Of a stretch of DNA of 51,745 nucleotides, positions 12,929-35,457 are shown in pieces. A program made the translations under genes and the position numbers. The stretch's first letter is position 1. Each line of letters starts with the position of its first letter. The notes below the pieces were generated by a model. That model ran no database searches, was not told where the DNA came from, and saw only the letters and a list, made by a program, of their open reading frames with translations. The stretch is from a virus, in IMG/VR virus record IMGVR_UViG_3300030109_003169, positions 1-51,745 of that record; one strand, 5' to 3'.

Positions 12929-13388
12929 TATCTTTTATTATTCCCATAGCTTTACAGGCTTCCATAAATTCAAATTGTCCAAACTTTTGTGGATTCTCAA
13001 CATCCAATCTTTTTTCGTGACCATCGTATTTATGTCTTTCTTCTTCAGGTATTTCTACAACTGAAGCGTAGTACCAATGCCAATTACTGACATCACCCTC
13101 TGGATAAATTACTCCCTTTTCTCCCATATTAATTACAGATGGAAACCAAACTATACCTCTTTTTTTATCAAAAATCTTTAAATCATTCATCAGTTTAGTA
13201 TGGCTTTTCGTATACTCTTCTAACTTTTCACTATCGAATGCCAAATAAGAATTTGATGTCATACCACATTGAAAACATATGTAAGAATCAAATGGTTTAC
13301 CCTCTATCTCTGTTGATTCTACGAAACAATTACTGTGCATCTCTGCACATAAAGGACAATCTGTTTTTACTTCTACGTGTTCTGACAT
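12921..13388 (-). CDS. Zinc-ribbon protein of unknown function
   Basis: The 155-aa protein has two CxxC pairs, CPLCAEMH at residues 11-14 and CFQCGMT about 25 residues later, forming a likely N-terminal treble-clef or zinc ribbon. The rest contains acidic, aromatic segments (NWHWYYASVVEIPEEE) without a family I recognise. It lies between glycosyltransferase genes with an 8-nt downstream overlap and a 1-nt upstream gap. It could be a substrate-delivery or regulatory protein, but nothing in the sequence decides this. Confidence 0.5.
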   Translation of the reverse strand: MSEHVEVKTDCPLCAEMHSNCFVESTEIEGKPFDSYICFQCGMTSNSYLAFDSEKLEEYTKSHTKLMNDLKIFDKKRGIVWFPSVINMGEKGVIYPEGDVSNWHWYYASVVEIPEEERHKYDGHEKRLDVENPQKFGQFEFMEACKAMGIIKDNG

Positions 13389-13389
13389 A

Positions 13390-14733: not shown

Positions 14734-14741
14734 TCTAACTC

Positions 14742-16154
14742 CTACCCTTCAAAAATTGTGTAACGTTTACGTGGTGTCCATTTATCAAAAGCCCTATCCA
14801 TATGTTCCATAAATAAACCTGACATAGCTTTAGCAGTCATCATAGCATCATCACTCATAACAAATTCGTGACCTAACCTACCACATCTTTTTCTTTCTTC
14901 AGCACCCATATCATACCACTCTTTTATAGCAGCAGCAAAGTCCTCTGAACGAGGTCTGTCATCATAAATGTATGGTGTTGGAACTGAACCCTGCAAACTC
15001 CTATTAGACGGCCAAACTGGTTTACACCACTCACCCCAAGTTAAATCAGGATTATCTTTCCATTTAAATTCATCGTGTAAAGAGTGTATCCATTCGTAAT
15101 CTTCATAAGTTATGAATTTATCTTTATATTTAAATCCAACTTGGTCTTGTAATCCACCAGTAACAGTTACAGATATTGGTGTTCCACACATCAACGACTC
15201 ACAAGTTCCTAAACCAAATCCCTCATTAGACGCCATATTCATTGTAACATCAGCTAAATTGTACATATAACACATCTCTTTGTCACTTAACTTTTTGTGT
15301 GAAAATATAACATCATAATCAGGACAGAGTTCTTCAACCAATGCTGGCAAATCTGTACCATTCTCATCGCGTGGTTGAGTGTGCATTATTAATGCACATT
15401 TCTTAGCTTGTTCTTTTGGTAAAGTATCACAAAATTGTTTGAATGACATCACAACATCACCAGGTAATTTTCTTCTAATATTTCTATTATTCCAAAAGAC
15501 TATGAAATCATACTCTCTACCCTGCGTTACAGTTCTTTTGAATTGTAATAAATCACCCCACTCTTTCATATTCAGTTCATCAACAGGATAAAAATTATCT
15601 TCATTGATTCCGTGAGGTACATAAGTATTATCCCAATCTGTTCTTGGTCTTTTCTGACAAACATTATCAACAATATTAACTGTCTGTTTAGATATATTCA
15701 TAATCAAATCACAACTCTCATAGAATGGTTCATTCCATCTTGGATAAGGCAAATCATCCCAAATATTGTAATAGAATATTGGAATATTTTGTCGTATCTC
15801 ATGCTCCATTTGATATAACCATCCCCAAAACCTTGGGTCTGTATAGTGAAGTATAGCATCGACACCAACACCATCTTTAGTTTCCATCCTCAGAACTTCT
15901 TTTAATAAGTCACCATTACCATATCCACTAACAGGATATATTTTAAGATAAGCATCTTTAATACCTGTCTCCTCTCTGACAGACTCATTCATATCAACGA
16001 TTTTGCCTTCATCTGGATGTTTGATTGCCCCACCTATCTGAACCCATTGGTAGTGTTCCAATGTTCCCAAAACAAATTCACGAGACATCGTACCAACTCC
16101 AGACGACATTCTCATATCATCTGAAAGAAGTAGTATCTTCTTTTTATTTTGCAT
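14742..16154 (-). CDS. GT-B (GT4-like) glycosyltransferase
   Basis: The 470-aa protein starts KILLLSDDMRMSSGVGTMSR, a GT4-type N-terminal domain, and has DYDVIFSHKKLSDKEMCYMY, NMASNEGFGLGTCESLMCG and TPISVTVTGG, the C-terminal E-x7-E donor site. The C-terminal helices (EERKRCGRLGHEFV) also fit. Longer insertions (YDDRPRSEDF) separate it from its neighbour, so the two are not recent duplicates. It is the first large gene of the glycan block in the transcription direction, 8 nt from the second GT4 gene. Confidence 0.85.
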   Translation of the reverse strand: MQNKKKILLLSDDMRMSSGVGTMSREFVLGTLEHYQWVQIGGAIKHPDEGKIVDMNESVREETGIKDAYLKIYPVSGYGNGDLLKEVLRMETKDGVGVDAILHYTDPRFWGWLYQMEHEIRQNIPIFYYNIWDDLPYPRWNEPFYESCDLIMNISKQTVNIVDNVCQKRPRTDWDNTYVPHGINEDNFYPVDELNMKEWGDLLQFKRTVTQGREYDFIVFWNNRNIRRKLPGDVVMSFKQFCDTLPKEQAKKCALIMHTQPRDENGTDLPALVEELCPDYDVIFSHKKLSDKEMCYMYNLADVTMNMASNEGFGLGTCESLMCGTPISVTVTGGLQDQVGFKYKDKFITYEDYEWIHSLHDEFKWKDNPDLTWGEWCKPVWPSNRSLQGSVPTPYIYDDRPRSEDFAAAIKEWYDMGAEERKRCGRLGHEFVMSDDAMMTAKAMSGLFMEHMDRAFDKWTPRKRYTIFEG

Positions 16155-18975: not shown

Positions 18976-19005
18976 AATATACACATTTTTATGTATACAA
19001 GTCAA
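18976..19005 (-). promoter_or_regulatory. Predicted promoter for the DUF1599-like gene
   Basis: On the minus strand TTGACT (19005-19000) is followed after 18 nt by TATATT (18981-18976), with the ATG 24 nt further on. The -35 lies inside the end of the Mom-like gene. The box sits in an 11-nt sequence (AAGCTTGACTT) repeated upstream of the DNA polymerase gene. Confidence 0.6.
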
Positions 19006-19621
19006 GCTTTTTTATTTGTCTTTTAATTTTTTTATTAAGATAGTATACATAAATATGCTTTGGTTTTGTGTTCTTCCAAAATATATTTTCATCACCAGCT
19101 TCGTATCTTCGTTTTAATTCTCTTCCATACGGCCTGTCTAATTGATTCAAAGACCTACTATGCATTTCTTTACCATCTACCATTAGTATCCTACCTCTCG
19201 ATGTCTCACCTAAATAATCAAAGTTAGTAGCTTTGTAAATCACACCCGTATGTCCGTGATGTTGGTCAGCAAACGAAACTATAACTTCCATATCTGTATC
19301 TCTTTTTAGTAATTTAAATGTCTGTCCTATAAAAAAACTTTCTGTGTTTTTAGGTGTGGCATCAATACAAACTAATCTTCTAAGTTCTAAACACTTAGTG
19401 GGATTAATTGGATTGTATTTAGCTGCTGTAGCTGGCATTGATGGATGAGCATACATCATAGCCCCAATCATTTTAGGTATTCCGAAATTTCCCTCTGTAA
19501 ATAATCCATAATGATATAAAGATTGGACACCATTTACATTGTGTGAATAGTGATGTTTCTCTATAAACTTTACTACTGATTTTCTAGGTACTTCTTCAAC
19601 TGTGAAGTTCTTTACGCTCAT
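18989..19621 (-). CDS. Mom-like GNAT-family protein (first copy)
   Basis: This 210-aa protein has HHYSHNVNGVQSLYHYGLF, ELRRLVCIDATPKNTESFF and SFADQHHGHTGVIYKATNF, which follow the conserved blocks of phage Mu Mom and related phage GNAT-fold proteins. Mom modifies adenines in DNA to protect it from restriction enzymes. The same family in other phages is often unassigned, so DNA modification here is by analogy. A second member lies at 22004-22768. It sits 2 nt after the clamp-loader small-subunit gene, within the replication transcript, a suitable place for a DNA-modifying enzyme. Confidence 0.72.
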   Translation of the reverse strand: MSVKNFTVEEVPRKSVVKFIEKHHYSHNVNGVQSLYHYGLFTEGNFGIPKMIGAMMYAHPSMPATAAKYNPINPTKCLELRRLVCIDATPKNTESFFIGQTFKLLKRDTDMEVIVSFADQHHGHTGVIYKATNFDYLGETSRGRILMVDGKEMHSRSLNQLDRPYGRELKRRYEAGDENIFWKNTKPKHIYVYYLNKKIKRQIKKLDLYT

Positions 19622-21081: not shown

Positions 21082-22016
21082 TTTATAATTCCCAACAATT
21101 CTATCATCATAGCCATCACATTTATTTCTTTATCAACAACCTGCGCATCTGATAATTGATATTTAGCAATAGTCAATATACATTCTGCTACGTGTCCTTT
21201 ACCATAATCATCAACTTCATCATACAACAAACGGAACACATCAGCAAAGTCTGATATTTGATTATCACCTAACATCTTTCTTATAGTCACAAAAGCGTCT
21301 TTCTTACTTTGTGTTTTCAATACATTGACAACTTGAGTAGAAAATACATTTACATTCAAATCAACTGCAACTAAATTATCTTGGTCGATTGACAACTTAC
21401 CATCAACTACTTGCCTTTGAGCAAAGTTTATAACTCTACGAATATCAGGATAGCCACCATTAACCAATGTAGCTACATCATCAACTTCGAACCCAACACC
21501 CTCTCCTTTTAAGATTTCGTTTAGGTGAATAGCAACTTCTTTTCTTGATGGTGGTACTATCTGAAATGGTTGGCAACGACTCTGTATTGGATCGATAATC
21601 CTTTCTACATAGTTACAAGTCAATATGAAACGAGTATGTTTAGAAAAAGTCTCCATAAGGTTACGCAAAGCCGCTTGTGCGTTAGGTGTGATATAATCAC
21701 ACTCATCTAATATAACAACTTTCATATCTTTGAATCCAATAGTAGAAGCAAAACCACGAACCTTATTACGAACTACATCAACACTATTCTCATCTGAAGC
21801 GTTAATATATAAGTGGTCACAATCTATATTATTGACAAGCAATTTAGCAAGAGTGGTTTTACCTGTACCTGCCCTACCATATAATAAAAGGTGTGGCAAA
21901 TCCCCACTCTCTAAATAAACCTTAACCTTACTTTTTAGATGTTCATTTCCTATATAAGATTCAAGTGAATTAGGGCGATACTTTTCAACCCATAAGGTAT
22001 TATCTAATCTTTCCAT
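21078..22016 (-). CDS. 44: Clamp loader AAA+ subunit, T4 gp44-like
   Basis: The 312-aa AAA+ ATPase has Walker A GRAGTGKTT at residues 47-55, Walker B VVILDECDYI, sensor FILTCNY and the SRC motif (IQSRCQPF). It starts LWVEKYRPNSLESYIGNE, as in RFC/gp44 proteins. It forms the motor of the clamp loader with the gp62-like subunit and opens the gp45-like clamp encoded just upstream. The length is normal for gp44. Its start overlaps the end of the second Mom-like gene by 13 nt. Confidence 0.93.
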   Translation of the reverse strand: MERLDNTLWVEKYRPNSLESYIGNEHLKSKVKVYLESGDLPHLLLYGRAGTGKTTLAKLLVNNIDCDHLYINASDENSVDVVRNKVRGFASTIGFKDMKVVILDECDYITPNAQAALRNLMETFSKHTRFILTCNYVERIIDPIQSRCQPFQIVPPSRKEVAIHLNEILKGEGVGFEVDDVATLVNGGYPDIRRVINFAQRQVVDGKLSIDQDNLVAVDLNVNVFSTQVVNVLKTQSKKDAFVTIRKMLGDNQISDFADVFRLLYDEVDDYGKGHVAECILTIAKYQLSDAQVVDKEINVMAMMIELLGIIK

Positions 22017-22768
22017 TTTTCGTTATTAACCTCTACTTTTGTTATTTCAATATCGTGTTTATAGTTTTTAGGATAGTCCATTTCAGGATGTTTCATAACA
22101 CTATGAAATTTTCTATTCTCTTTTTTATTACCAAGAAAGTAAATGTATCTATGTTTACTAGCTTCTTTCTTCAACCAAAAGTCGTGTCCAATAGCCTTAA
22201 CCATTTTCTTAGGATCTGATGAACCAAATTTAGAATAAACACTTCTACTATGTATCCATTCTCCATCTTCTTCTAATCTCAGAGAATAGGTTGGCGCCAT
22301 TTGAAAAGCACCACAACCTTGATATATCCAATTAGTTGCTTGGTAGATAGCACCATCGTGTGATTGTTCAGGGTCAGCATAAGATATTAGAACCTTTATA
22401 TTTTGAGCGTTCTCTTTCAACCATTTGAAAGTCAATCCCAATGCCAAAGACTCAATATTTTTGCCATATCCATCGTGGATGAAGAGTCTCGTAAGTTCTA
22501 ATATGTTTTTATTCTCTAATATTTCTTCAGAGAAGATAGAACCGAGAACTCTTCTTCCAACAGGAAAACCATAACATGCAACTCCCACAAGTTTCTCTTC
22601 AGCTTCTGCAAAGAATTTGTGTTCATTATCAGTTTGATAAAAGATTCCAAGAGGATAGCGACAAGATGACAACCTACCACTATAATGGTTTTTTTCTATT
22701 ATATCCTTAGCCAATGGTTTATAGATTGGTCTAACGGATACTCTAGACTTATCTACATATTCTTCCAT
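22004..22768 (-). CDS. Mom-like GNAT-family protein (second copy)
   Basis: This 254-aa protein shares the blocks of the first copy: NHYSGRLSSCRYPLGIF, ELTRLFIHDGYGKNIESLA and SYADPEQSHDGAIYQATNW. The two are diverged, so they are not a recent duplication, and this copy has a longer C-terminus (IYFLGNKKENRKFHS). It lies between the sliding clamp and clamp-loader genes, which in T4-like phages are normally adjacent. It may modify phage DNA as it is replicated, by analogy with Mu Mom; the substrate is not known. Confidence 0.72.
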   Translation of the reverse strand: MEEYVDKSRVSVRPIYKPLAKDIIEKNHYSGRLSSCRYPLGIFYQTDNEHKFFAEAEEKLVGVACYGFPVGRRVLGSIFSEEILENKNILELTRLFIHDGYGKNIESLALGLTFKWLKENAQNIKVLISYADPEQSHDGAIYQATNWIYQGCGAFQMAPTYSLRLEEDGEWIHSRSVYSKFGSSDPKKMVKAIGHDFWLKKEASKHRYIYFLGNKKENRKFHSVMKHPEMDYPKNYKHDIEITKVEVNNEKWKD

Positions 22769-23524: not shown

Positions 23525-23545
23525 AGTTTTTATTTTCAAAATCAA
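23517..23545 (-). promoter_or_regulatory. Predicted promoter for the sliding clamp gene
   Basis: TTGATT (23545-23540), inside the end of the polymerase gene, and TATATA (23522-23517) are 17 nt apart on the minus strand. The -10 falls within the inverted repeat. A weaker match than the promoters at 18976 and 30975. Confidence 0.4.
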
Positions 23546-26037
23546 AAAAATCTTTCCATAGATGTCTTTTTATTTACTGGCTCATTCCACTTCAATGAAT
23601 CATAAAACATCATTATCTTTTTCTCTAACATTTGAGCATACATCTTTTTGTAGTCAATATTAGTTTTAATAAATTCTATTATTTGTGGTGGATCTTCATA
23701 ACCTTTATATCCACAAGACTCTAATCCTAAATCATTTTGTCTTAGATAAACCCACTTTATCTTTTCAGAGTTACTTATCTTTTCATATTTTTTACCAACT
23801 CCGAAATGTCTTAGTAAATCATTATAAGTTATAGCGGCTTTGATATGAGCTGGTGCACCTTTGGCAAACTTTGTAAACTTACCCATCTTACCATCTGAGT
23901 ATTTCTTTAAGTTATTTATACCAGTTGGCATCGCTATCCTATCGAAGTCTACCAACTTCATAGATTCCTTAAAATTTATAATTCTCTCATCTATCTTATC
24001 CTTTGGCACAGTTGCCAGAATATCCTCTAATACACTTTTTAATAACTCACCCATAGCCTTTGGAAAATTACTACGAACTAAGTCCAATCCTTTGACATGC
24101 AGTTTGTTTACCTTTACTCCATTGTCATTGATAATCTTCATACCATATCGTTTCTTCACAATAAACAAACCACTCTTAGCAATCAATTCCTGCTTTATCT
24201 CAAATCTATGTTTATCCAAATTCAAAAACCTTTTGGCAAAGTAATCATAAGACTTATTCAGAAATCCCTGCATCTCATCAGCCACATCCAATATCCTCTT
24301 ACTCATCATAGTCTCACTATCGAAGTCCATAGTAGGAAATCTTTTCTTAACTAATGGAAGCGCTGAATAGAAAACTGAATCAGTATCAATATAAATACAA
24401 TAGTCATTATTATCTCCCAACTCTTTGTTGTAGAAATGATTACCAATCTTTTTGGTAAACTTAATTAGTTCTTGACCTGTAAGTGTAGTAGCCTCAGCAT
24501 TGTCTAAGTCATAGAATCTAAATACTGGCAAACCTAACACACCATATAATGAATTTAGAACCACCTTTTGAATTAACTGACGACTTTTGAAGTAAGTATA
24601 CTTCTCATTATCACCAGCATCACCGAACTTCTTCATCAACTTTCTATACTCCACACGAGTATCGAACCACTTTTCTAACAGAGCCGGAATCAATCCTTTC
24701 TTATCACTACGATATAATACACCATTAGAAGATACTGAAACTTTATTATTATCAAAGAAATCTTTTAGTTCTGTTTCAGTAAGTTTACCCATCTCTTTTT
24801 CGCCTGACATAAGAGTATAAGTTTTCTTAGTTCCTTTCATAAACTCTTCAGCATCCCAACCTTTTAATTTACCCATCTTTGTTTCAGGCGATACATTCAG
24901 AGACATAATAACTGATGGATACATAGATGTAATATCTAAATCAAATACCCAATCGTGTTTACCTCTTTGTGGTGGTTGTACATAAGCACCAGCAAACTTC
25001 TCATCACTATTCATATTTGGTCTGGTTGGTTTATTAGGGGCTATCACTCCTAAGTTTTTTAGATAAACTAAAATAGCACCCTCTAAATAACGAGATGAGA
25101 AATAAACATCTTCATATGGAACGTGACCTACGTGACATACACCACGAGCCATATCAATTAAATCTAATTTTTCGTGTAATCTTCTTACAAGTCTAACATC
25201 GTGTATGTTATACTCTACAAATTTATCTATGTTATTTTCATATAAATCATTTAGTGTTCCACTATAATCAATTTTCTTTTCACTAAGTTCGTGTTCAGCT
25301 ACAGCATCTAATCTGTAAGATGATAATTGAGTATAGGTAAATAATTTATATAGAGCCAAATAATCCAAACAACTAACACCAGCAAACATATATCTCTTAC
25401 GATGTTTGTTCCATTTAACTTCTCTTATAGGTGATATTAGATTAGCTATATCCGAACCAACTATTTTACAAGCTCTGTTATATAGATATGGCATATCAAA
25501 TGAATCTGAATTCCAACCTGTAATTATGGTTGGTTTCCAATCTAAATATAATAGAAAAAATCTTTGTAGTAAATCAAACTCATTTTCAAAAGATTCGATA
25601 ATCACATTATCTTTTGATTCTAAACTGAGTTTCTTTTTCTCATCCAATACTAAACAATGATACTCATCTTCTTCTGAATTATGTACAGCAATCGCTGTCA
25701 CTTTGTTTTTGGCATCTTCAGGATATGGAAAACCATCTGTTACTTCAACCTCTATATCGATTGTCATAATACGATGGCCTTTAGACATTTCTTCTGAATC
25801 TGTGTAATTGTCTACTAATACACGAGTTTCAGGTGGAACATCTGATTCAAATAAATTTGGTGTGTCGGGATCGAATCTATAAACCTTTTTAAGTTTATCT
25901 CCATATAAAGATATATGAGTTCCAGCCCTATCCTTTACATAAGCATATTTTTTATGTGGAAGTGTATAATAACCACTTTCATCATCCCATATATGAAACA
26001 ATTGTTTTTTATTATCGAAGTAAACATTTTGGTACAT
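23542..26037 (-). CDS. 43: Family B DNA polymerase, T4 gp43-like
   Basis: This 831-aa replicative polymerase has proofreading motifs Exo I (IDIEVEV, D94 and E96), Exo II (GWNSDSFDMPYLYN) and Exo III (YNIHDVRLV), then polymerase motif A (DLDITSMYPSVIMSL), motif B (KVVLNSLYGVLG) and motif C (YIDTDSVF). All catalytic aspartates are present. It is slightly shorter than T4 gp43 and is not split. The clamp gene follows 57 nt downstream. Upstream is a terminator-promoter region separating it from the TonB receptor gene. No Shine-Dalgarno sequence is obvious at its ATG, and a TATAAT lies 3 nt upstream of it. Confidence 0.97.
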   Translation of the reverse strand: MYQNVYFDNKKQLFHIWDDESGYYTLPHKKYAYVKDRAGTHISLYGDKLKKVYRFDPDTPNLFESDVPPETRVLVDNYTDSEEMSKGHRIMTIDIEVEVTDGFPYPEDAKNKVTAIAVHNSEEDEYHCLVLDEKKKLSLESKDNVIIESFENEFDLLQRFFLLYLDWKPTIITGWNSDSFDMPYLYNRACKIVGSDIANLISPIREVKWNKHRKRYMFAGVSCLDYLALYKLFTYTQLSSYRLDAVAEHELSEKKIDYSGTLNDLYENNIDKFVEYNIHDVRLVRRLHEKLDLIDMARGVCHVGHVPYEDVYFSSRYLEGAILVYLKNLGVIAPNKPTRPNMNSDEKFAGAYVQPPQRGKHDWVFDLDITSMYPSVIMSLNVSPETKMGKLKGWDAEEFMKGTKKTYTLMSGEKEMGKLTETELKDFFDNNKVSVSSNGVLYRSDKKGLIPALLEKWFDTRVEYRKLMKKFGDAGDNEKYTYFKSRQLIQKVVLNSLYGVLGLPVFRFYDLDNAEATTLTGQELIKFTKKIGNHFYNKELGDNNDYCIYIDTDSVFYSALPLVKKRFPTMDFDSETMMSKRILDVADEMQGFLNKSYDYFAKRFLNLDKHRFEIKQELIAKSGLFIVKKRYGMKIINDNGVKVNKLHVKGLDLVRSNFPKAMGELLKSVLEDILATVPKDKIDERIINFKESMKLVDFDRIAMPTGINNLKKYSDGKMGKFTKFAKGAPAHIKAAITYNDLLRHFGVGKKYEKISNSEKIKWVYLRQNDLGLESCGYKGYEDPPQIIEFIKTNIDYKKMYAQMLEKKIMMFYDSLKWNEPVNKKTSMERFF

Positions 26038-26075
26038 TTAGATTATAAAAACCCCTTTTTCAACACTTAAAGTTA

Positions 26076-26102
26076 CAAACAAAAACCATTAAAGTCAAGC
26101 TT
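26076..26102 (-). promoter_or_regulatory. Candidate promoter element upstream of DNA polymerase
   Basis: AAGCTTGACTT (26102-26092) repeats exactly the -35 region at 18999-19009. The matching -10 at 17 nt would be TAACTT, which is weak. It lies directly after the TonB gene terminator, where a new transcript would be needed. Confidence 0.4.
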
Positions 26103-26110
26103 TATTTTGA

Positions 26111-26137
26111 TAAAAAGGGGGCTTTTGCAAGCCCCCC
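26111..26137 (-). terminator. Rho-independent terminator of the TonB receptor gene
   Basis: On the minus strand, GGGGGCTT and AAGCCCCC form an 8-bp stem (26136-26129 with 26124-26117) around a GCAA tetraloop, followed by TTTTTA. It lies 12 nt after the receptor stop codon. A strong GC stem, GNRA loop and U-tract make this the best terminator in the window. Confidence 0.9.
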
Positions 26138-26148
26138 AAATTACCATT

Positions 26149-28875
26149 TTAAAAATTAACAGAAAGTCCTAAGTTGAAGTGTCTTGGTGTACCCAAAAAT
26201 ACTTCAGCGTTATGAGCTGCGTGAACTTTGTCACCATACCCATTGTACTTACTATTATCGACAGCATCCTGTACATAAACATTATCAAGTGCGTTAAACA
26301 CGTGACCAGTTAGAGTTAAATCTAAACCAGCAATTTCTGGCAGTTTATATGCAAAATGCAAATCAAGTTTAGAATATCCAGGAGATTTCCAAACTTGTGC
26401 TCTGTCAGCGTCACCATCGACTTCACGAGAATCAGGACTCCAATCAGCATAGTGATTGTCGTATATCCTATAAAGACCCTGTAAACTAAGTCCATCGATT
26501 GGCTTTAGTGTAAGACCACCAACATAAGCAGTTTGTGGCATATCACCAACCATTAAACCATCGAGAGCGTATTCATACTCTGTAGAAGTCTGACCAATGA
26601 TTTGATTATCATCGTTGTATTCCATCTCTGTATAATCACCTTTAGCATCGCCATCAAACTTCCAAGAACCAATACTTACTGCTACATCCAACTCAACCAT
26701 TTCGTGAAGAGCAACTTTAGACTCTATCTCAAAACCGCTGTGACTTTGGTCGACACCTTTAAGATAAATAATATCTGTGTCGCCTGAGTCACCTTGACCT
26801 GTTGTTACAGATTTAGTAAGGTTTCTATCTTTCCATTGAGTGTTATAGAAACTACCTTTGATAGCAACTAATTCACTGTTATACTCACCACCGATTTCAT
26901 TAGATATGAATTTCTCATTATCTGGATTCTGTGATACATTACCATCATAATCGATTACATTATCTAAGATTGGTGGTTTCTGAACATACCCAACATTGGC
27001 AAATGCTGACATTCTATCATCAAGATTGAATCTACCACCACCTTTAACTTGAAAGGTTGTAATATTATCAGCCTCAACTACATCAGCATCAACAGCAAAA
27101 TGGTCGTGATAAGTATATCCAATTGTAGATACACCACCCATACCATAAAGGTTGAATTTTTCAGTATCATATTTACCTTGCACAAATCCACCTAACCAAT
27201 CAACAGTAGTTTCGTTATGATAAGCGATAATATCACCTAACCTAACAACTTTACCATCAGCAGCGTTGTCATCAGCAAAATCAACATAATAGTCACCACC
27301 TAATAAATCACGAACTTCACGAGCGTGTTCTATACCAGCAGTTCTCCAATCAAGACCAATCTGAACTTCAAGTTCATCTGAAACATCATAGTTTAATTTA
27401 GAAATCAAACCATAAGTGTTTTGTCTATTGATTGAATTACGAAGTATACCTGTTGAGCGATTTTCTGTATCAGACCAAGCAGAATCTACATTAGCAGAGT
27501 TCTGTTCAATCTCAGCGTTCCAATCCCACATCCAAGGTGAACTTGCGTACCAAGCATTTCCTTCAACTGCAGGTATTCTACTGACACTACCATAAGTACC
27601 AGTTCCACCACCTGAACCACCAGACCAATAGAGTACAGAACTTAGTCTCATCTCATCATTGATGTCATAGAAATGGTTAAGGTTTACCAATGGTTTATGA
27701 AAGAAGTTTTCTCTTTCATTCAACATATTGGCATTATACCTATCGGTTGTTCTCGCACCATACATATACCAATACTGCTGGCCTTTGTATGATGGATCAA
27801 CAGGTGCCCAATTTTGGTTGAAAAACCTACCAGCTTCGTGCTCAAACTTCTCACCCTCAACATAAGCTGAATCGTTGTATCCATCGATACTACCAGCTAA
27901 CTCTTGTGAATAAGTTGCTATGTTCTGTTTATATAGGTTTTGTCCGTGCCTTTGTGGTGCACCAATTGCGTATAACTCAAATCGATGTTCGTCATTCATC
28001 TGATAGGAACTACCAAAGTAGTAAGCCCATGCGTCTGTCCAAGTTCCATCAATGAAACCATCACCAGTCTTACGAACTATTGTTCCACTAAGTGCCAGTT
28101 TGTCATTGATTAGACCTGAGTTATAGTTTAAAGTAGATTTAAGGAATCCACCCTCACCTACTTCTTGCTTTATTTTACCACCCTTTTCGTGAGCAGCAGG
28201 ATCTGTGATGATGTTCATAGTTCCACCAATTGACGGTGTTGCTAAATTAACGGCTGATAGACCTCTTTGCATCTGTATGGAATTAGAAGCATCTGCGACA
28301 CCATCCCAATTAGACCAATAAACCCATCCGTTCTCCATATCATTTTGGGGAACACCATTTATCATCACTGCAACATTTCGTTGATTGAAACCTCGAACAT
28401 TGATACGAGCATCACCCGCACCACCGCCTTGCCCAGTTGCGTAAACACTCGGTGTAGTATTCAGAGCCATTGGAATATCTTGTGAGCCAAGACGGAATTC
28501 CAAATCTTCCTTACTAACATTAGTGTAGGCAACAGGTGTTGTTTCATCAGCGCGAGAAGCTAATACTTCAAGAGCTGATAATGTAACAGCATCGATTTCT
28601 AAAGTGAAATCGGCATTTACATTACTTTCACCCACTGTTACTGTCACAGTAACTGATGAGTACCCAATGAATGAAGCAGTTACATTGTGTGTGCCAACTG
28701 GTACATCTACAACATAAGAACCATCTTGTGTTGAGACAGCTCCTAAGTTAGTACCATCAACAACCACATTCGCTCCAGCCAAAGGTTGCTTACCATCAGT
28801 TACAATTCCAACTACAGATTGAGCAAACAATCCTGTCATCATCATAAATGATAGTATTAGATTACGATATTTCAT
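26149..28875 (-). CDS. TonB-dependent outer-membrane receptor
   Basis: The 908-aa protein has a signal peptide (about residues 1-19, ending LFAQS), a CarboxypepD-regulatory-like domain (about 20-95, GANVVVDGTNLGAVSTQDGS), a plug with INVRGFNQRNVAVMINGVP and SIQMQRGLSAVNLATPSIGG, and a long beta-barrel ending in Phe as OMP barrels do. Such receptors import siderophores, cobalamin or glycans in FCB-group bacteria. I see no frameshift or truncation. It has an AAGGAGAA ribosome-binding site, an upstream leader with a predicted pseudoknot and a terminator. A complete receptor in a phage replication region is very unusual and was probably taken from the host. Confidence 0.95.
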   Translation of the reverse strand: MKYRNLILSFMMMTGLFAQSVVGIVTDGKQPLAGANVVVDGTNLGAVSTQDGSYVVDVPVGTHNVTASFIGYSSVTVTVTVGESNVNADFTLEIDAVTLSALEVLASRADETTPVAYTNVSKEDLEFRLGSQDIPMALNTTPSVYATGQGGGAGDARINVRGFNQRNVAVMINGVPQNDMENGWVYWSNWDGVADASNSIQMQRGLSAVNLATPSIGGTMNIITDPAAHEKGGKIKQEVGEGGFLKSTLNYNSGLINDKLALSGTIVRKTGDGFIDGTWTDAWAYYFGSSYQMNDEHRFELYAIGAPQRHGQNLYKQNIATYSQELAGSIDGYNDSAYVEGEKFEHEAGRFFNQNWAPVDPSYKGQQYWYMYGARTTDRYNANMLNERENFFHKPLVNLNHFYDINDEMRLSSVLYWSGGSGGGTGTYGSVSRIPAVEGNAWYASSPWMWDWNAEIEQNSANVDSAWSDTENRSTGILRNSINRQNTYGLISKLNYDVSDELEVQIGLDWRTAGIEHAREVRDLLGGDYYVDFADDNAADGKVVRLGDIIAYHNETTVDWLGGFVQGKYDTEKFNLYGMGGVSTIGYTYHDHFAVDADVVEADNITTFQVKGGGRFNLDDRMSAFANVGYVQKPPILDNVIDYDGNVSQNPDNEKFISNEIGGEYNSELVAIKGSFYNTQWKDRNLTKSVTTGQGDSGDTDIIYLKGVDQSHSGFEIESKVALHEMVELDVAVSIGSWKFDGDAKGDYTEMEYNDDNQIIGQTSTEYEYALDGLMVGDMPQTAYVGGLTLKPIDGLSLQGLYRIYDNHYADWSPDSREVDGDADRAQVWKSPGYSKLDLHFAYKLPEIAGLDLTLTGHVFNALDNVYVQDAVDNSKYNGYGDKVHAAHNAEVFLGTPRHFNLGLSVNF

Positions 28876-28908
28876 TTCATCGTTCTCCTTCTTTGTTCAT
28901 TAATGAAA

Positions 28909-28942
28909 GGCACATTTTTCTACAGGTGTGCCGGCTGCCTGT
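28909..28942 (-). promoter_or_regulatory. Predicted H-type RNA pseudoknot in the leader of the TonB receptor gene
   Basis: On the minus strand ACAGG (28942-28938) pairs with CCTGT (28926-28922), while GGCACA (28932-28927), lying in the loop of that stem, pairs with TGTGCC (28914-28909). Stem 1 is 5 bp, stem 2 is 6 bp, loop 1 is CAGCC, loop 2 is zero and loop 3 is the A-rich AGAAAAA. This is the geometry of compact riboswitch or translational-control pseudoknots. It ends about 18 nt before the ribosome-binding site. It matches no known class that I can identify. Confidence 0.5.
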
Positions 28943-28950
28943 CCGCATGT

Positions 28951-30933
28951 TTAATTTCCATATTCAGGTACTTCGCAAACATCATTGTTACAAAATTTAT
29001 CGACATCTGCTTCTTCGTTCTTAATTACACCAAATGATAATTTACCTAATTTACTTACCATCTCATTATATTCAGCTTCTGTAATAGCTTCGTATGGCAT
29101 TTGTTTATAAGCACCTAACTCGTGCCGTGGTAATAATGATATACCTTTCAACTTATATTGAAAGTAATTAAGTACGTGTGGTAATTGTTCTGATTCTGTT
29201 TCAGGATCAAATGTAGCAGTACAACTTACTTGATTATCTGCCCAATGTCTTTGTAGAAAAGCGGCTAAACTGAATTGTTCCCAAATAGAAAGTTCAGCCG
29301 CAGTTCTGATCCCTTCTCCCACATCCACGGGTACTTCTACAACCATTGTCGTATCTTCTGAACCGAAAGCTGGTTCTAATGGATAGTTAGCTTTCTTTAG
29401 TGGTTCTAATAATTCTGAATGTTTTGATAATCTCATTCTCCTAATATAAAACCTCGACTCAGGATAGTGCATTCCTGGAGTAGCGCCAACCAATAATGAA
29501 ACTGTACCACTCGGTTTAACTGAAGTAGTTTTAATTGACTTTGGTACAGCAAACCAATCACTATATTGTTTATCCCAATCTTGAATAGTGTCATATCCTT
29601 TCTCCAACCATTTCTGTAATTCACCCATTCCATTTTTGGTAATAAACTGAGCTACTCCACTTACAGAACATCCTATTCTTCTATTTCTTAACATAACTCT
29701 ATTGGTTTCAGGCCAATGAGTTCTTCCTAATGTAACTGTTTTAGCGTACAGATACGCATATTTTAAAGTTCTTTGATAATCTTCTAATGAATCGTGATTA
29801 GATGGAAATGTTTCTACTAAGCAACATAACTCATATGATTCTAATGATTGTTCTAAACAAGGATTACCACCAGCTACTCTGTGGTCTTTATCATCACCAC
29901 CATTTTTCATACGAGAGTAGTGTCTCATATTTTCTAACCAAGCAAATCCAGGCTCACCATTATCCACAATTCGTTTACACACATCAGTATAATCCATACC
30001 AAGTTCGGCAAATATACTATTATTACTTGTCCATCCATATTGCTCTCTCCCAGGATTTACTTTATAATTCTTTAAATCTAAATATTCTTCATTATCAGGT
30101 TCACCAAATACAATCTCAGCAGTTCTTCTTACATTACCTGCAACAACACATTTGCCGATAAGATTCATTATGTCTACGATTGTTGTGATTGATATTGGTT
30201 CGCCACTATTTTTATATAATACCTTTCTTATATCTTCGTGTACTTCTAATAATGGTTCGTGTCCACTACTAACTCCACCAAACCCTTTGATTGGTTGACC
30301 TGCTGGTCTAATTAATTGATAATCAAACTCTACTGGTGCAGTTCCGTGAAAGTAACTATCCAAAAGAATTTTTAGAGATTCAACCCAACCCTCACGAGTA
30401 TCAGGTATTTCAAATACTTGTTCATCTCTATTTTCATCAACTCCTTTTACAACTATCTCTCCTGCACCTTTTGTATCAAATCCAACACCAACACCCAACA
30501 TACTGGCATCCATAAGGAAACAGAATGGTTTTGAGTAATCTTCTTTTATTGTTGATGTAGATACAAATGCACAATTGTTAAGGGCGGCGTATAAACCTTT
30601 CTCTTCAGTTATGGCTGTTCCCATAGCCCAAAGACCTCGGCCAGGTGGCAAAAACTTCATATTGAACATACGCTCATACATATCTTGCGCAGAAGATTGA
30701 GCTTGCCACGGATTCCACCCTAATTGATGTGAATCAATCCATTTCTTTTGCATAGAGTAAGTTCCCTCTACAACCCTTTGTACAGTTTCCCACCATCTTT
30801 CGTTTTTACCATTGTCTTTGATTCTTGAATAGGTTCTCATATAAACTAACTCACCTAATCCGTTAAAACCGAATGGTGGTTTTTTCCTTTTAAATTTATT
30901 TATAAACTTTTCTGATAATGTAAACTTTTCCAT
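28951..30933 (-). CDS. nrdJ: Class II (adenosylcobalamin-dependent) ribonucleoside-triphosphate reductase
   Basis: This 660-aa enzyme makes deoxynucleotides with a B12-generated thiyl radical. It resembles the monomeric Lactobacillus-type enzyme: FLPPGRGLWAMGT, the redox Cys121 in LNNCAFVSTST, MLGVGVGFDTKG for B12 binding, NPCLEQSLESYELCCLVETF with the radical-site Cys, and PSGTVSLLVGATPG. The C-terminal tail ends CNNDVCEVPEYGN, a C-x4-C pair that shuttles electrons. It is shorter than the 739-aa Lactobacillus enzyme. It needs host cobalamin, which is notable beside a TonB-dependent receptor gene. A strong promoter lies upstream. Confidence 0.93.
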   Translation of the reverse strand: MEKFTLSEKFINKFKRKKPPFGFNGLGELVYMRTYSRIKDNGKNERWWETVQRVVEGTYSMQKKWIDSHQLGWNPWQAQSSAQDMYERMFNMKFLPPGRGLWAMGTAITEEKGLYAALNNCAFVSTSTIKEDYSKPFCFLMDASMLGVGVGFDTKGAGEIVVKGVDENRDEQVFEIPDTREGWVESLKILLDSYFHGTAPVEFDYQLIRPAGQPIKGFGGVSSGHEPLLEVHEDIRKVLYKNSGEPISITTIVDIMNLIGKCVVAGNVRRTAEIVFGEPDNEEYLDLKNYKVNPGREQYGWTSNNSIFAELGMDYTDVCKRIVDNGEPGFAWLENMRHYSRMKNGGDDKDHRVAGGNPCLEQSLESYELCCLVETFPSNHDSLEDYQRTLKYAYLYAKTVTLGRTHWPETNRVMLRNRRIGCSVSGVAQFITKNGMGELQKWLEKGYDTIQDWDKQYSDWFAVPKSIKTTSVKPSGTVSLLVGATPGMHYPESRFYIRRMRLSKHSELLEPLKKANYPLEPAFGSEDTTMVVEVPVDVGEGIRTAAELSIWEQFSLAAFLQRHWADNQVSCTATFDPETESEQLPHVLNYFQYKLKGISLLPRHELGAYKQMPYEAITEAEYNEMVSKLGKLSFGVIKNEEADVDKFCNNDVCEVPEYGN

Positions 30934-30974: not shown

Positions 30975-31003
30975 ATAATATATACCGATTCTTCTTTACT
31001 CAA
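30975..31003 (-). promoter_or_regulatory. Predicted promoter for the ribonucleotide reductase gene
   Basis: TTGAGT (31003-30998) overlaps the end of the helicase gene and is followed after 17 nt by TATTAT (30980-30975) on the minus strand, about 42 nt before the ATG. AGGAG precedes the start codon. This is among the best sigma-70-like matches here. Confidence 0.6.
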
Positions 31004-32366
31004 ATCCCTCAGTTTTTGGTTTTAAGTCATTATATTTCTTAGATAATGTCTGCCTTAAATATTCTTCTGAATTATCCATCTTACCTTGCGCTTCTTTCCC
31101 ACCCTGCGTTGAAGCCTCATACACTTGTATGTGACCTGTATTGGTATTAATTTCTGCAGGAAATGTTATTCCATCAACACCAAATCTATTTTTAATTACG
31201 TGAACTCTGCCTGTGTTTGCAATCTTATCTTCTACCTTACGACTTACCGACATAACAAAATCCGCTGTCATTACTTTACTATAATCTTCAGCGACTTTAC
31301 TGGCATCAATCACTTCCTCTTCTAACGAACTTCTGTTTGCCTGTGATGCTGTCCATATTGGAACATCAAACTCACCAGCCATACCACGAAGATTTTCATA
31401 AGTCTCACCAGTTGCGTGTCTCTTCTCTTTATAGAATGTGGTTGGTTTTAGTATGTCAGCGTAATCCACAATCACAACATCAGGTTTGATTTCTTGTATC
31501 TCCATCTGTTTAAGATGAGAAGCCAATGTATTTACAGAAGCAGAACGAGTAGGATAATATTTTATAATTAACTTACCCTTTAAACCATCTATAACCTTTT
31601 GTACATCATCTTGATAGAACTTAATATTAGCAGTTGGTGTTCCACTAAATACTGTATCATATCTCAAACCAACATAAGATTCATTTAACTCTAAAGTATA
31701 ATGAACTACAGTTTTACCTTGCTTTACTAAATGAGCACCTAAAGATTGTAAACACCAAGTCTTACCAATACCAGCAGGCGCAACTAATACACCTAACTCA
31801 CCACCAGCCAATCCACCATCCATAACAGTAGTAACCGAATCCCAAGGTGTAGGTAGTGTTGCTCTAACTGAATCTGTAAGTCTATCTTCTAATGATATAA
31901 TATAATCGTGACCTAAGTCTCTTTCACTACCAGCTTTCATAGCAGCGTCAATTATTACTTTTATTTCATCATACTTTTTTTGTTCTAATAAATTAACCGA
32001 TTCCATAATCGATTCTTTAATAACCTGATTTTTACAAAAACCTAAAGTTTCTTGCTTTACAAATTCTAAATCAGTAGCCTCTATATTTCTCCAAGCATCT
32101 TTTAGATTTTCTATAACAGAAACCTTTAATATCTCATCTTCCATTTGAGTTATTTTAATTTTCAATACCTCTAATGTAGGAGCTTTTCTAAACTCCATAA
32201 AGTACTTACTGATTTCTTTTGTTAGCCATTTATTGGCATCTGAATCAAAGTACTCTGGTTCTAATATATCACTAATTGTTTGTATAAATTTATTATCTGA
32301 CAGTAAGGATGATATTACCTTTGCCTGAAATGTTGGACCGAATTGATTAAAATTCTCACTCGCCAT
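30996..32366 (-). CDS. 41: Replicative DNA helicase, DnaB/T4 gp41-like
   Basis: The 456-aa protein has a helical N-terminal domain (about residues 1-150) and a RecA-like motor with Walker A APAGIGKTW at 196-204, Walker B DVVIVDYADIL, the motif IWTASQANRSS and a C-terminal VHVIKNRFGVDG segment. It unwinds DNA ahead of the polymerase as a hexamer. No gp61-type primase is seen in the window. It is followed by the RNR gene and preceded by a small basic protein gene, which it overlaps by 11 nt. Confidence 0.93.
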   Translation of the reverse strand: MASENFNQFGPTFQAKVISSLLSDNKFIQTISDILEPEYFDSDANKWLTKEISKYFMEFRKAPTLEVLKIKITQMEDEILKVSVIENLKDAWRNIEATDLEFVKQETLGFCKNQVIKESIMESVNLLEQKKYDEIKVIIDAAMKAGSERDLGHDYIISLEDRLTDSVRATLPTPWDSVTTVMDGGLAGGELGVLVAPAGIGKTWCLQSLGAHLVKQGKTVVHYTLELNESYVGLRYDTVFSGTPTANIKFYQDDVQKVIDGLKGKLIIKYYPTRSASVNTLASHLKQMEIQEIKPDVVIVDYADILKPTTFYKEKRHATGETYENLRGMAGEFDVPIWTASQANRSSLEEEVIDASKVAEDYSKVMTADFVMSVSRKVEDKIANTGRVHVIKNRFGVDGITFPAEINTNTGHIQVYEASTQGGKEAQGKMDNSEEYLRQTLSKKYNDLKPKTEGFE

Positions 32367-32535
32367 ATAGTTCTCTTCTTTGTATTTCTTTCAGTTCCAT
32401 TTGTTTTTTTCTACGATAGCGTTCTCTTGCTTTTGCTTGAAGAACTGCCCTATTCTTATAGTAGTAATTCATAGACCATTTTCTCTGAGCTTCTTTTTTT
32501 TCTTCCTCTGAAGTATATTTACGTTTTCTTCCCAT
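32356..32535 (-). CDS. Small very basic protein
   Basis: From ATG 32535 the 59-aa protein reads GRKRKYTSEEEKKEAQRKW and continues with many Arg/Lys and an aromatic NYYYKN. It looks like a helical DNA-binding peptide of the kind found next to phage nucleases. I prefer the ATG to a TTG at 32568 because the longer form would overlap the exonuclease gene by 50 nt. It lies between the exonuclease and helicase genes. The function is unknown; nucleic-acid binding is inferred from charge. Confidence 0.5.
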   Translation of the reverse strand: MGRKRKYTSEEEKKEAQRKWSMNYYYKNRAVLQAKARERYRRKKQMELKEIQRRELYGE

Positions 32536-33553
32536 TTGTTTTCTCAGCCATTTGATTGAGTTTAGCAAAACATTGAACTAACCAACTATCCATATTTGGT
32601 AGTGTGGCAAACAATCTATCTTCTATGAACCTTTTTTGAAATTGTATTTTATTTAACCTATTAATAGGTTCTCTGACTTTATCTAATATTTTAGTTTTAG
32701 CAGAAGCGCTGATGTCTACTTCATCTAACTGCATTAACCTATAGTTTCTATTCAATAACTCTTCGCTCTCTTTTAGCTTTTCATCTTCATTAATAATGTC
32801 CTCTATATTAAGTATCTCATCTTCGAGCAAAAGCGGTAGTTTTTTTTGAATAGTTTTCAATCCCCACCCACGAACACCATTTATATTATCTGACTTATCT
32901 CCATCGATTGCTCTGTATACAGCAAAGTTATGTGATGGAATGCCATAGTCCTCTAATACTTTTGGAGGATCGTACATCTTCTTTTTTGTTGGTGACCAAA
33001 CTGATACTCTGTGATTTACCAACTGAAGAAAGTCTTTGTCTGTAGACATCAAAACAACCTTAGATGTTTTTAGAATTTGTTTAGTGATATAAGCCATTGT
33101 GTCATCAGCTTCTATACCCTCAATCGTAATCGTAGTGATTGGCAAATAATCTAAATAGTCAATTACTCTGGTTAATTGCATAACCATAGATTGATGTTCA
33201 TCTTCTTTAGTATTGAAATCATAAGACCGATTGAGTCTTTCTGACATTTTTCTACCAGCCTTATACTCTGGAAATATTTTTTTACGGCGGTTAGACCCAC
33301 CCTTACCATCAAATACTATAACAGTCCGAGTAGGTCTAATTGTTCGTATAGCGTATCCAACCGATCTTAGAAAACCAACTATTCCCCCAACGTGAGCACC
33401 GTCATCATTGAGAGTTGGTATAGCGCTGAAACATCTTATAAAAGTATTCAGACCATCTATAATCAGTATTTTATCATTAGGTTCTTCTGAGTCTAATTTA
33501 CCGCCTTTGTTTTTTATTTCTTCAAGTATTGACAGATACTTTTCATTACTCAC
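32519..33553 (-). CDS. rnh: 5'-3' exonuclease / RNase H, T4 Rnh-like FEN family
   Basis: The 344-aa protein begins with the metal-binding ILIIDGLNTFIRCFSA and has RTVIVFDGKGGSNRRKK, EGIEADDTMAYI, VLMSTDKDFLQLV and DGDKSDNINGVRGWGLKT, the full set of acidic blocks and the helix-hairpin-helix of FEN-type nucleases. T4 Rnh removes RNA primers from Okazaki fragments with the SSB and polymerase. The start is GTG (GTGAGTAA overlap with UvsX, 8 nt), with AGAGGT upstream; no in-frame ATG keeps the first motif. Confidence 0.88.
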   Translation of the reverse strand: MSNEKYLSILEEIKNKGGKLDSEEPNDKILIIDGLNTFIRCFSAIPTLNDDGAHVGGIVGFLRSVGYAIRTIRPTRTVIVFDGKGGSNRRKKIFPEYKAGRKMSERLNRSYDFNTKEDEHQSMVMQLTRVIDYLDYLPITTITIEGIEADDTMAYITKQILKTSKVVLMSTDKDFLQLVNHRVSVWSPTKKKMYDPPKVLEDYGIPSHNFAVYRAIDGDKSDNINGVRGWGLKTIQKKLPLLLEDEILNIEDIINEDEKLKESEELLNRNYRLMQLDEVDISASAKTKILDKVREPINRLNKIQFQKRFIEDRLFATLPNMDSWLVQCFAKLNQMAEKTNGKKT

Positions 33554-34643
33554 CGATTACCTCTTCTGTAACTTCTACATCATCAATACCTAAATCAGAT
33601 TTGGTATATTTTAGTATTACCTTATCACAAATAAGTTCATAACAATATTCTTTAAACTTTGGATCTTCTAACTTTTCAGACCAATCTTTAGATTGAAATT
33701 TAATCTCTTTTCCATTATGGTCTGTCATAGTATACCAAGCACCACCAACTTTGACTAAGTTATGGTCTTTAAGAACTTGCAACCAACTACCCTCATCATC
33801 TACACCACTTTCAAAGTAGAGTGGAAACTCAGCTTTTCTTAATGGAGGACCCAAACGATTCTTAATCACTTGCGCCAGAATAGTCATACCAATAGTATTC
33901 TTTTTACTATCTTTAATCTGACCTTTATTCTTTAATCTGATACGAGTTGAAGCGTGAAATGGAAGAGCCTTACCACCTGAAGTAGTCCACGGGTCTCCAA
34001 ACATCACACCTAATTTTTGTCTTAGCTGATTTGTAAATACTAAAGCTATTCTCTGTCTACCAATCATTTGGGTAATCTTTCTCATAGCTTTACTAATCAC
34101 AATAGCCTTTGATGTAGCCCAACCATCTTTGTCATAGTCTGCATTCAACTCAACCTTTGTCGTAGCAGCTGCTAGTGAATCTACTAAGATAGTTACTAAT
34201 CTATCTTTATCTGATTCTCTAACTTTGGTTACGATTTCTTCGATAGCCTCAAAAATATCTTCTACTGTTTCTAAATGTAGATATAACATTTTACCAATAT
34301 CCACACCTATCACTTCAAGAAAATCTTCACTAACGGCAGTTTCAGTATCTATATAAACAGCGACACCACCTTTCTTTTGAGTTTCTGCGAGTAAATGTGC
34401 ACCTACTAAAGATTTACCACTACTTTCTAATCCATTTAATTCTGTTATTCTACCAACAGCAATACCACCATTAGGGCGATTGGAAATAGCTAAGTCCAAC
34501 ATTGTTGAACCAGTAGAGATGAATTCTTTTATGTCTGTGGGTGTTGGATTTTTACCATCTAAAAAGTAAGCAACCTTATAGTCTTTAAATTTCTTATTTA
34601 GAGAGTCCGCTAGAACCCCAGCTAAATCGTCTTTAACTGACAT
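33546..34643 (-). CDS. uvsX: Recombinase UvsX/RecA-like
   Basis: This 365-aa strand-exchange ATPase has Walker A GLESSGKS at residues 71-78, Walker B VTILVDSLAA, VYIDTETAVSEDF with the catalytic Glu-type residue, and LVFTNQLRQKLGVMFGDPW followed by TTSGGKALPFH, the RecA L2/DNA-binding region. It drives recombination-dependent replication together with gp32. AGGAG lies 7 nt before the ATG. A 10-bp hairpin lies between it and the gp32-like gene. Confidence 0.93.
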   Translation of the reverse strand: MSVKDDLAGVLADSLNKKFKDYKVAYFLDGKNPTPTDIKEFISTGSTMLDLAISNRPNGGIAVGRITELNGLESSGKSLVGAHLLAETQKKGGVAVYIDTETAVSEDFLEVIGVDIGKMLYLHLETVEDIFEAIEEIVTKVRESDKDRLVTILVDSLAAATTKVELNADYDKDGWATSKAIVISKAMRKITQMIGRQRIALVFTNQLRQKLGVMFGDPWTTSGGKALPFHASTRIRLKNKGQIKDSKKNTIGMTILAQVIKNRLGPPLRKAEFPLYFESGVDDEGSWLQVLKDHNLVKVGGAWYTMTDHNGKEIKFQSKDWSEKLEDPKFKEYCYELICDKVILKYTKSDLGIDDVEVTEEVIGE

Positions 34644-34695: not shown

Positions 34696-35457
34696 TTACT
34701 TATTGAACAATTCGTCAAAAGCTGCGCTTGTGTCCTCAACCTTAGTTGATTCGGCAATTGTAGCTGAAACAGGTGCTGTTTCTTTTTTAGACTCATCAGT
34801 ACTCTCTTCGTTTGGATTCAACCACTCATTAAGAACACCAGTTAGTTCTTCATAAGATAATTCCTGATACAACTCAGCAATATTCTTTTGATTATCTAAC
34901 AGAGCTTCAAGCTTTGCTTTGTCCTCAATAATAGGTGTTTGATTCGGTTTAACACGAATAGAAGTTGATGGAAAAGATTTACCTGTTTCCTCAGCAGTTT
35001 TGAATTCGACAGCGACATCACGACCACTTACAGGATCGGTAATATCACCATAGTCTGGATCTGCAATTACAGAAAGTAATTCCTGATAAACAGTCTTACC
35101 AAAACCCCAAAAACGAACACCTTGAGCTTCTTCACCTCTTACGATTATCGGAGCAAAAGTTCTCATTTTAGCTTCCAATTTACGAGCCATTTGGTATTCC
35201 TCACGATTGCCACTCGTTTTAAGTTTTTGAGCAAACTCTTCGATTGGATCTGGACGACCATATGTGATTGGTGAAAGATAGGTTTTGTTATTCAAACCAA
35301 AGTGGAAGAACAATTCAATGAAAGGATTATCCTTATTATGTTTGTAAGGTAATACTCTAATTACTTGCTTTCCTGGTTGTGGTTTCCATAGGTTTGAAGT
35401 CCTATTGTTTGTGGTTTGTAGCTGTGTAAGCCTGTTACGAATAGAATTAATATCCAT
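34696..35457 (-). CDS. 32: Single-stranded DNA-binding protein, T4 gp32-like
   Basis: The 253-aa protein starts MDINSIRNRLTQLQ, as in gp32 N-terminal cooperative-binding regions, followed by LWKPQPGKQVIRVLPYKHN and the core block LFFHFGLNNKTYLSPITYG, RFWGFGKTVYQELLS and DPVSGRDVAVEF. The C-terminus is an acidic tail (DTSAAFDELFNK) that recruits partners. The T4 zinc-binding cysteines are absent, as in many marine relatives. It sits upstream of uvsX, next to the recombination partner. Confidence 0.88.
   Translation of the reverse strand: MDINSIRNRLTQLQTTNNRTSNLWKPQPGKQVIRVLPYKHNKDNPFIELFFHFGLNNKTYLSPITYGRPDPIEEFAQKLKTSGNREEYQMARKLEAKMRTFAPIIVRGEEAQGVRFWGFGKTVYQELLSVIADPDYGDITDPVSGRDVAVEFKTAEETGKSFPSTSIRVKPNQTPIIEDKAKLEALLDNQKNIAELYQELSYEELTGVLNEWLNPNEESTDESKKETAPVSATIAESTKVEDTSAAFDELFNK

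Follow-up and report, generated by a model that had tools for sequence, protein, structure and literature searches.

The receptor gene and its neighbours

Why does a phage carry a complete gene for a TonB-dependent receptor (TBDR), where does this gene come from and what does it do during infection? The window we have analyzed is a whole IMG/VR record of 51,745 nt (51.7 kb), probably a piece of a larger genome. Its relevant features, all of them on the minus strand, are the following:

23542..26037, minus: family B DNA polymerase (PolB), downstream flank of the TBDR (E 2e-37)
26066..26098, minus: putative promoter-like sequence TTGAC...TAACTTTAA ahead of PolB, read from the sequence
26112..26137, minus: intrinsic terminator GGGGGGCTTGCAAAAGCCCCC-TTTTT closing the TBDR (terminator analysis)
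26149..28875, minus: TBDR, 908 aa, intact ORF (Pfam, AlphaFold2, Foldseek, IMG/VR relatives, tree)
26155..28182, minus: beta-barrel, read as 22 strands (AlphaFold2 and Foldseek; strands by hand from DSSP)
28219..28545, minus: plug domain, aa 111-219 (Pfam)
28522..28578, minus: TonB-box region ALEVLASRADETTPVAYTN, aa 100-118 (kept from phage to host)
28591..28818, minus: periplasmic CarbopepD regulatory-like domain, aa 20-95 (Pfam, entropy)
28819..28875, minus: signal peptide MKYRNLILSFMMMTGLFAQ, aa 1-19 (read from the sequence)
28876..28908, minus: A-rich spacer and Shine-Dalgarno AAGGAG, from pseudoknot to start codon (sequence)
28909..28942, minus: H-type pseudoknot, 34 nt, ACAGG-CAGCC-GGCACA-CCTGT-AGAAAAA-TGTGCC (position, covariation)
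28951..30933, minus: adenosylcobalamin-dependent class II ribonucleotide reductase (RNR), upstream flank (TIGR02505)
30996..32366, minus: DnaB-like replicative helicase (profile match)
32519..33553, minus: 5'-3' exonuclease, FEN-like (profile match)
33546..34643, minus: UvsX/RecA-like recombinase (profile match)
34696..35457, minus: gp32-like ssDNA-binding protein (profile match; leader without pseudoknot)

The initial annotation described a complete TBDR on phage DNA, with signal peptide, regulatory domain, plug and a barrel ending in Phe, with its own leader and terminator and with polymerase and RNR as direct flanks. All these points have been borne out. The ORF occupies exactly positions 26149-28875, and Pfam finds CarbopepD_reg_2 at aa 23-100 (E 3e-14) and Plug PF07715 at aa 111-219 (E 3e-13, 50.7 bits, cut-off 23.9). 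The Pfam barrel model, PF00593, does not match the window TBDR, a barrel is nevertheless found in the AlphaFold2 model (74-sequence alignment, mean pLDDT 73, poor in the plug region), and the C-terminal residue is Phe908. The Foldseek matches of this model are Fiu, YncD/PqqU, FhuA, FecA and FoxA, which are of the siderophore type, with E from 1e-23 to 1e-29; in the PDB, a sequence search gives as its best match the remote 9gbc, a "TonB-linked outer membrane receptor". The TonB box, LEVLASRA..TPVA, is common to phage and host copies. From sequence and model, the window ORF has the features of a TonB-dependent transporter: a signal peptide, a plug, a TonB box and a predicted 22-strand barrel with an aromatic end. 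The leader contains a covarying pseudoknot, and an intrinsic terminator is found at 26116-26137, on the 3' side. The RNR flank exceeds the curated TIGR02505 cut-off (347.8 bits, 340.05 required), which places it in the adenosylcobalamin-dependent class II.

We also considered a SusC/RagA transporter, and we have discarded it: No SusD-like lipoprotein partner adjoins the TBDR in the window, where the flanks are RNR and PolB, and the nearest folds are siderophore-type transporters.

Distribution among phages

TBDR relatives are encoded in 315 IMG/VR stretches. The best 80 of these have 75-87% identity, except L080, which is a near-copy of the window. In nearly all long-enough loci among these 80, the order is helicase-RNR-TBDR-PolB, and contigs of sufficient length repeat the longer order UvsX-FEN-helicase-RNR-TBDR-(0-5 variable ORFs)-PolB. 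The TBDR-bearing records of 94-165 kb have exactly one Plug match each. When loci are fetched by helicase alone (they partly overlap contigs from the earlier sets), the TBDR is kept in about 30 of the 34 with a readable flank and absent in four. INPHARED contains only remote TBDR matches, with about 30% identity at best. A search of related phage contigs for the same insertion had been proposed; it is found in many of them, in conserved synteny, and has been lost naturally in some.

The best example of such a loss is given by L209 and L210, which are 98.5-99.4% identical: The TBDR is present in L210 and absent from L209, which lacks 2.8 kb between two 8-bp ACCAAGAA copies (L209:4409-4416 versus L210:10906-13703), one of them at the RNR end, the other near the TBDR end. 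The TBDR terminator is still found in L209, so the absence corresponds to a deletion. L201, L203 and L205 likewise have no TBDR; in L209 and L205 the class II RNR is retained without it.

These data bear on whether the locus might be an assembly chimera, in which a host gene has been joined into a phage contig. The TBDR stretch does have a higher G+C (36-40% versus about 33%). Nevertheless, the same junctions recur in tens of independent metagenome assemblies, so that a chimera is very unlikely; since the leader pseudoknot is found only in phages and the viral alleles form a group of their own in the tree, we consider its probability practically negligible.

Two side observations concern the same slot. 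In L067, L068, L069 and L076 the polymerase is 25-27% identical to the window PolB, which suggests a polymerase replacement. Many IMG/VR contigs of the group (L155, L167, L170, L181, L195 and others) stop at the TBDR or within RNR. Assemblies would be expected to break at this point if its alleles are diverse.

Origin of the gene

A receptor phylogeny had been suggested as a way of finding the host, and it points to Fidelibacterota (SAR406) as the donor, with the viral clade nested inside. Matches to the TBDR in the genome_contigs collection correspond nearly all to Fidelibacterota/Marinimicrobia MAGs, mostly with 54-69% identity. Two others, with 74-75% identity, L081 (NZWA01000089.1, "Flavobacteriales") and L126 (PBHZ01000014.1, "Euryarchaeota"), are phage contigs by synteny, probably mis-binned into MAGs. 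In a tree with 129 rows, all 82 phage TBDRs form a single group inside Fidelibacterota sequences, with a support of 72 without the short host contig L082 and 100 when it is included. Each of the 12 host genomes analyzed contains one full-length ortholog (split over two hits in one case) with 60-69% identity, far above that of the other TBDRs in the same genomes. A single ortholog per host genome, together with the nested viral clade, makes SAR406 very probably the donor, judging from these sequences. We infer that SAR406 is the present host too. In this way an uncultured group of phages becomes linked, through its receptor, to SAR406, which is one of the commoner uncultured lineages in the dark ocean.

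The host ortholog has the same domains as the phage TBDR, including TonB box and plug. It differs in its leader, which has no pseudoknot, and in its neighbours: Host orthologs are monocistronic and lie beside housekeeping genes. Their outer loops also differ, being calmer in the phage copies. Examination of these host loci for a substrate clue gave none. The host leaders of one clade (L103, L118, L123 and L136) carry TGTGATGTCTGTCACA, which resembles a CRP-type operator.

A pseudoknot in the leader

Every intact phage TBDR leader that we have checked contains [ACAGG]CAGNN[GRCRCA][CCTGT]NNAAAAA[TGYGYC] or a variant of it. In the alignment of 61 distinct sequences, 97.6% of the cells pair, and 51 cells are double-changed, against a mean of 11 in shuffled alignments (a value reached in 0 of 500 shuffles). 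For covariation, the score obtained is 0.257, versus at most 0.074 when the pattern is slid. Helix 1 appears as ACAGG/CCTGT, ATAGG/CCTAT, ACTGG/CCAGT, CCTGG/CCAGG or GCTGG/CCAGC, helix 2 as GACACA/TGTGTC, GGCACA/TGTGCC, GACGCA/TGCGTC or AGCACA/TGTGCT. Minimum-free-energy folding, with z values of -0.4 and -2.3, does not recover the pseudoknot, which is expected, since such folding considers nested pairs only.

An IMG/VR-wide scan finds the pseudoknot in at least 119 stretches. It lies ahead of a TBDR ORF at 198 of 207 sites, the other nine are at most 106 nt from a contig end. The median distance from its end is 17 nt to the Shine-Dalgarno (5-95%: 14-23) and 29 nt to the ATG, with a spacer which is 53% A. 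A looser scan is uninformative, as 25% of random 300-nt windows pass it; the exact-core set was used instead. In 199 Fidelibacterota genomes, scanned with up to two mismatches, the element is not found.

PreQ1-I riboswitches (RF00522) and the leader of T4 gene 32 also have a short H-type pseudoknot, with a loop 3 rich in A, shortly before the start codon. The phage leader corresponds to neither of them: There is no covariance-model match to preQ1-I, no Rfam family matches even at E up to 10, and the element is missing from the window gp32 leader, where a T4-type gp32 operator would be expected. A TBDR gene with a structured leader is also known in E. coli, where btuB is under the translational control of a cobalamin riboswitch, according to PMC11162775. 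The phage leader has another size and fold, and it does not match RF00174.

Judging from the alignment, the leader has the conserved and covarying structure typical of a riboswitch, and its position suggests that it regulates translation of the TBDR. The 34-nt RNA can be made and probed directly for ligands. As a side observation, 56 of 121 distinct phage leaders have a CACATAC motif no more than 45 nt ahead of the pseudoknot. This motif, which might be part of a shared promoter, also appears in a few host TBDR leaders (L083, L090 and L096).

Exchange and selection among phage alleles

The pairwise identities of backbone genes are correlated among themselves in the 26 loci compared (Spearman 0.58-0.82). 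On the other hand, TBDR identity shows only a correlation of 0.09-0.37 with the backbone, and of 0.57 with RNR. L028 and L064 have identical helicases (100%) and TBDRs with 81% identity; for L011 and L015 the values are 52% for the helicase and 90% for the TBDR. Four-fold sites concur: In distant pairs, the TBDR is more alike than the backbone. These discordances indicate that alleles have been exchanged among backbones, while the RNR-TBDR slot has been kept.

The correlation with RNR is relevant to a possible role as a vitamin B12 feeder, in which the TBDR would import cobalamin for the adjacent adenosylcobalamin-dependent enzyme. Class II assignment of the RNR by the curated cut-off and its contiguity also fit. 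Nevertheless, we regard this role as improbable: in L209 and L205 there is a class II RNR and no TBDR, BtuB is absent from the top 50 Foldseek matches, and a scan of eight host TBDR loci finds no cobalamin riboswitch. There is one such riboswitch in 10 of the 12 host genomes, beside genes without TBDR similarity, so that BtuB by orthology has also been discarded.

Omega is about 0.14 for the TBDR, versus 0.05-0.11 for replication genes: As estimated from the alignments, selection is purifying, somewhat relaxed. With region limits set by hand from DSSP of the AlphaFold2 model, per-site entropy in phages and hosts is, respectively, 0.14 and 0.21 for the plug, 0.45 and 0.59 for the TonB-box region, 0.48 and 1.14 for the outer loops, and 1.29 and 1.25 for the periplasmic CarbopepD N-domain. 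Among phage alleles, variation in the mature protein is thus highest in the N-domain; plug, TonB box and outer loops are retained by purifying selection. Outer loops are 2.4 times less variable in phage TBDRs than in those of the hosts; since the host sequences are more divergent overall, a safer statement is the ratio of loops to N-domain within each group, 0.37 in phages and 0.91 in hosts.

Could the receptor be a selfish passenger, the RNR-TBDR slot being a recombination hotspot where the gene persists mainly by hitch-hiking, without a strong benefit? Allele swapping, variable ORFs around the slot and the natural deletion agree with this idea. It is made very improbable by the omega value and the near-invariant plug, by a conserved leader RNA dedicated to the gene and by the retention of the TBDR in most of the helicase-fetched loci. 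In terms of sequence, the TBDR has these features of an auxiliary metabolic gene: It is derived from the host, kept by the phage and under purifying selection. A homing endonuclease driving the RNR-TBDR cassette was rejected: Among the adjoining ORFs tested there are metabolic genes, a DNA methylase and genes without a known function, and no homing endonuclease.

Role of the receptor

Two roles had been proposed for this gene, nutrient import and the masking or replacement of host receptors. The former fits our results better, and the latter is less favoured. We consider it somewhat probable that the TBDR, derived from SAR406, is a regulated importer of the ligand of the host receptor and supports dNTP synthesis. 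A T4-like phage lineage would have captured, most likely once, a single-copy TBDR conserved across Fidelibacterota, and would have retained it at the end of a replication/dNTP block, UvsX-FEN-helicase-RNR-TBDR-terminator. Synteny, the single viral group in the tree and purifying selection, all of them drawn from sequence comparison, speak for this capture and for retention in that position. The phage-specific H-type pseudoknot, with its conserved structure and its position about 17 nt before the Shine-Dalgarno, would control translation. The protein would then be exported, placed in the outer membrane and powered by the Ton system of the host, and it may take up whatever small ligand the host receptor imports. 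An infected cell in a nutrient-poor environment could thereby keep phage DNA synthesis supplied with a cofactor or with building material.

Import accounts for the conservation of loops, plug and TonB box, for the type of selection, the position in the operon and the neighbours related to dNTP and nitrogen, and it agrees with the presence of a dedicated leader. When glutamine synthetase and TBDR are found in the same contig they are always adjacent (15 of 15 contigs, downstream in nine, upstream in six; for example, L004:8939-9925, L022:7337-8314, L029:7061-8056 and L071:12796-13785). Thymidylate synthase, a PNKP-type phosphatase and peroxiredoxin are found near the TBDR in other contigs. The loss of the TBDR in otherwise near-identical phages counts against import, and so does the rapid exchange of alleles, which is also expected of a gene for exclusion or specificity.

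Many related phages also encode a short secreted protein with a TonB C-terminal domain (TonB_C), found in 8 of 28 related records (five of the seven with at least 94 kb). These proteins have a signal peptide, and no membrane anchor or proline-rich linker is visible. Examples with 104-130 aa are the following:

L336:3946-4260, secreted TonB_C ORF
L337:3747-4070, secreted TonB_C ORF
L338:3994-4386, secreted TonB_C ORF
L339:3809-4165, secreted TonB_C ORF
L340:3933-4271, secreted TonB_C ORF

We have detected them in at least 55 IMG/VR contigs, and 10 of the 35 checked also have the TBDR pseudoknot. Small TonB_C proteins are present in the hosts too, as found by an HMM search. No ExbB is found in nine related phage records, so the energising machinery of the host must be used. 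Periplasmic TonB fragments inhibit FhuA and FecA function in E. coli; if the secreted domain competed for TonB boxes, it would hinder import, not help it. Pilin-like N_methyl ORFs are found in 11 of the 28 records. The secreted TonB domain has type-IV-pilin-like ORFs (GFTLIELVMV) and further exported ORFs beside it in L337:1400-3644 and L338:4440-7898. The window, itself a fragment, contains neither secreted TonB_C nor pilin-like ORFs.

These accessory genes favour a different role in superinfection exclusion or in receptor replacement: Either by itself or together with the pilin-like proteins and the secreted TonB domain of sister phages, the TBDR would flood or block the entry factors of competing phages (TBDR, TonB, type IV pili). 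It is well established that phages use TBDRs and TonB for entry (PMC11658791), and FhuA is inactivated by Cor proteins (PMC11436027). Exclusion explains the exchange of alleles among backbones and the TonB domain better than import does. It does not explain the conserved outer surface: Competition at phage-binding loops should make this surface the variable part, and what varies is the periplasmic N-domain. In addition, Cor and Llp, known exclusion proteins that target FhuA, are small, unlike a full transporter, and TBDR and TonB_C also occur apart: L158 and L042 have only the TBDR, L209 only TonB_C. We therefore see exclusion as an unlikely explanation, although one to be kept in mind, and regulated import is still the role we prefer. 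Rather unlikely as well, and clearly speculative, is a more elaborate form of import: The leader would be a new class of riboswitch, sensing the imported ligand of the receptor or a dNTP/cofactor signal and gating uptake run by the phage; in phages with the TonB domain, the whole Ton system would be taken over, the phage choosing which receptor works.

Comparison with known phage receptors

The presence of TBDRs in phages is already known, from the text available for PMC9723777 and from PMC8857322. The former describes a SusC-type TBDR in the marine megaphage Mar_Mega_1 (LR745206), with a proposed role in raising uptake during infection; a conserved slot, a leader or allele exchange are not described in that text. 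LR745206 has only about 30% identity with the window TBDR, in an alignment around the plug that covers 21% of the query. TBDR domains are also found in Bacteroides/Alistipes viruses, which are gut phages (PMC8857322). These and PHROG 5687 are, as here, cases of phage genomes with Plug/TBDR domains; the match of PHROG 5687 to the window TBDR is limited to the plug region, and the nearest hits in annotated collections have about 30% identity. Our literature search, which did not reach most subscription papers and preprints, found no TBDR in a SAR406 phage, nor a near-core, recombining and RNA-led TBDR in phages linked to SAR406. The new features are the leader pseudoknot, allele recombination with a kept slot, the selection pattern, the clean loss and the neighbouring genes for secreted TonB_C and glutamine synthetase.

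TBDRs had turned up before in a few phages, as scattered cases. In the large lineage of marine phages described here the gene is near-core, occupies one locus and has its own RNA element, so far uncatalogued. Our results suggest that phages with a SAR406-derived TBDR control what the infected cell takes in. Whether and how lytic phages control the imports of an infected oligotroph becomes testable in this system.

Two other regions of the window should also be mentioned. Positions 18989-19621 and 22004-22768 code for two Mom-like DNA modification proteins (PHROG 1384), so the phage DNA may be modified. Positions 3791-16154 contain a run of genes of the sugar/glycan type: RfaE-like, nucleotide-sugar epimerase-like, two glycosyltransferases and methyltransferase-like.
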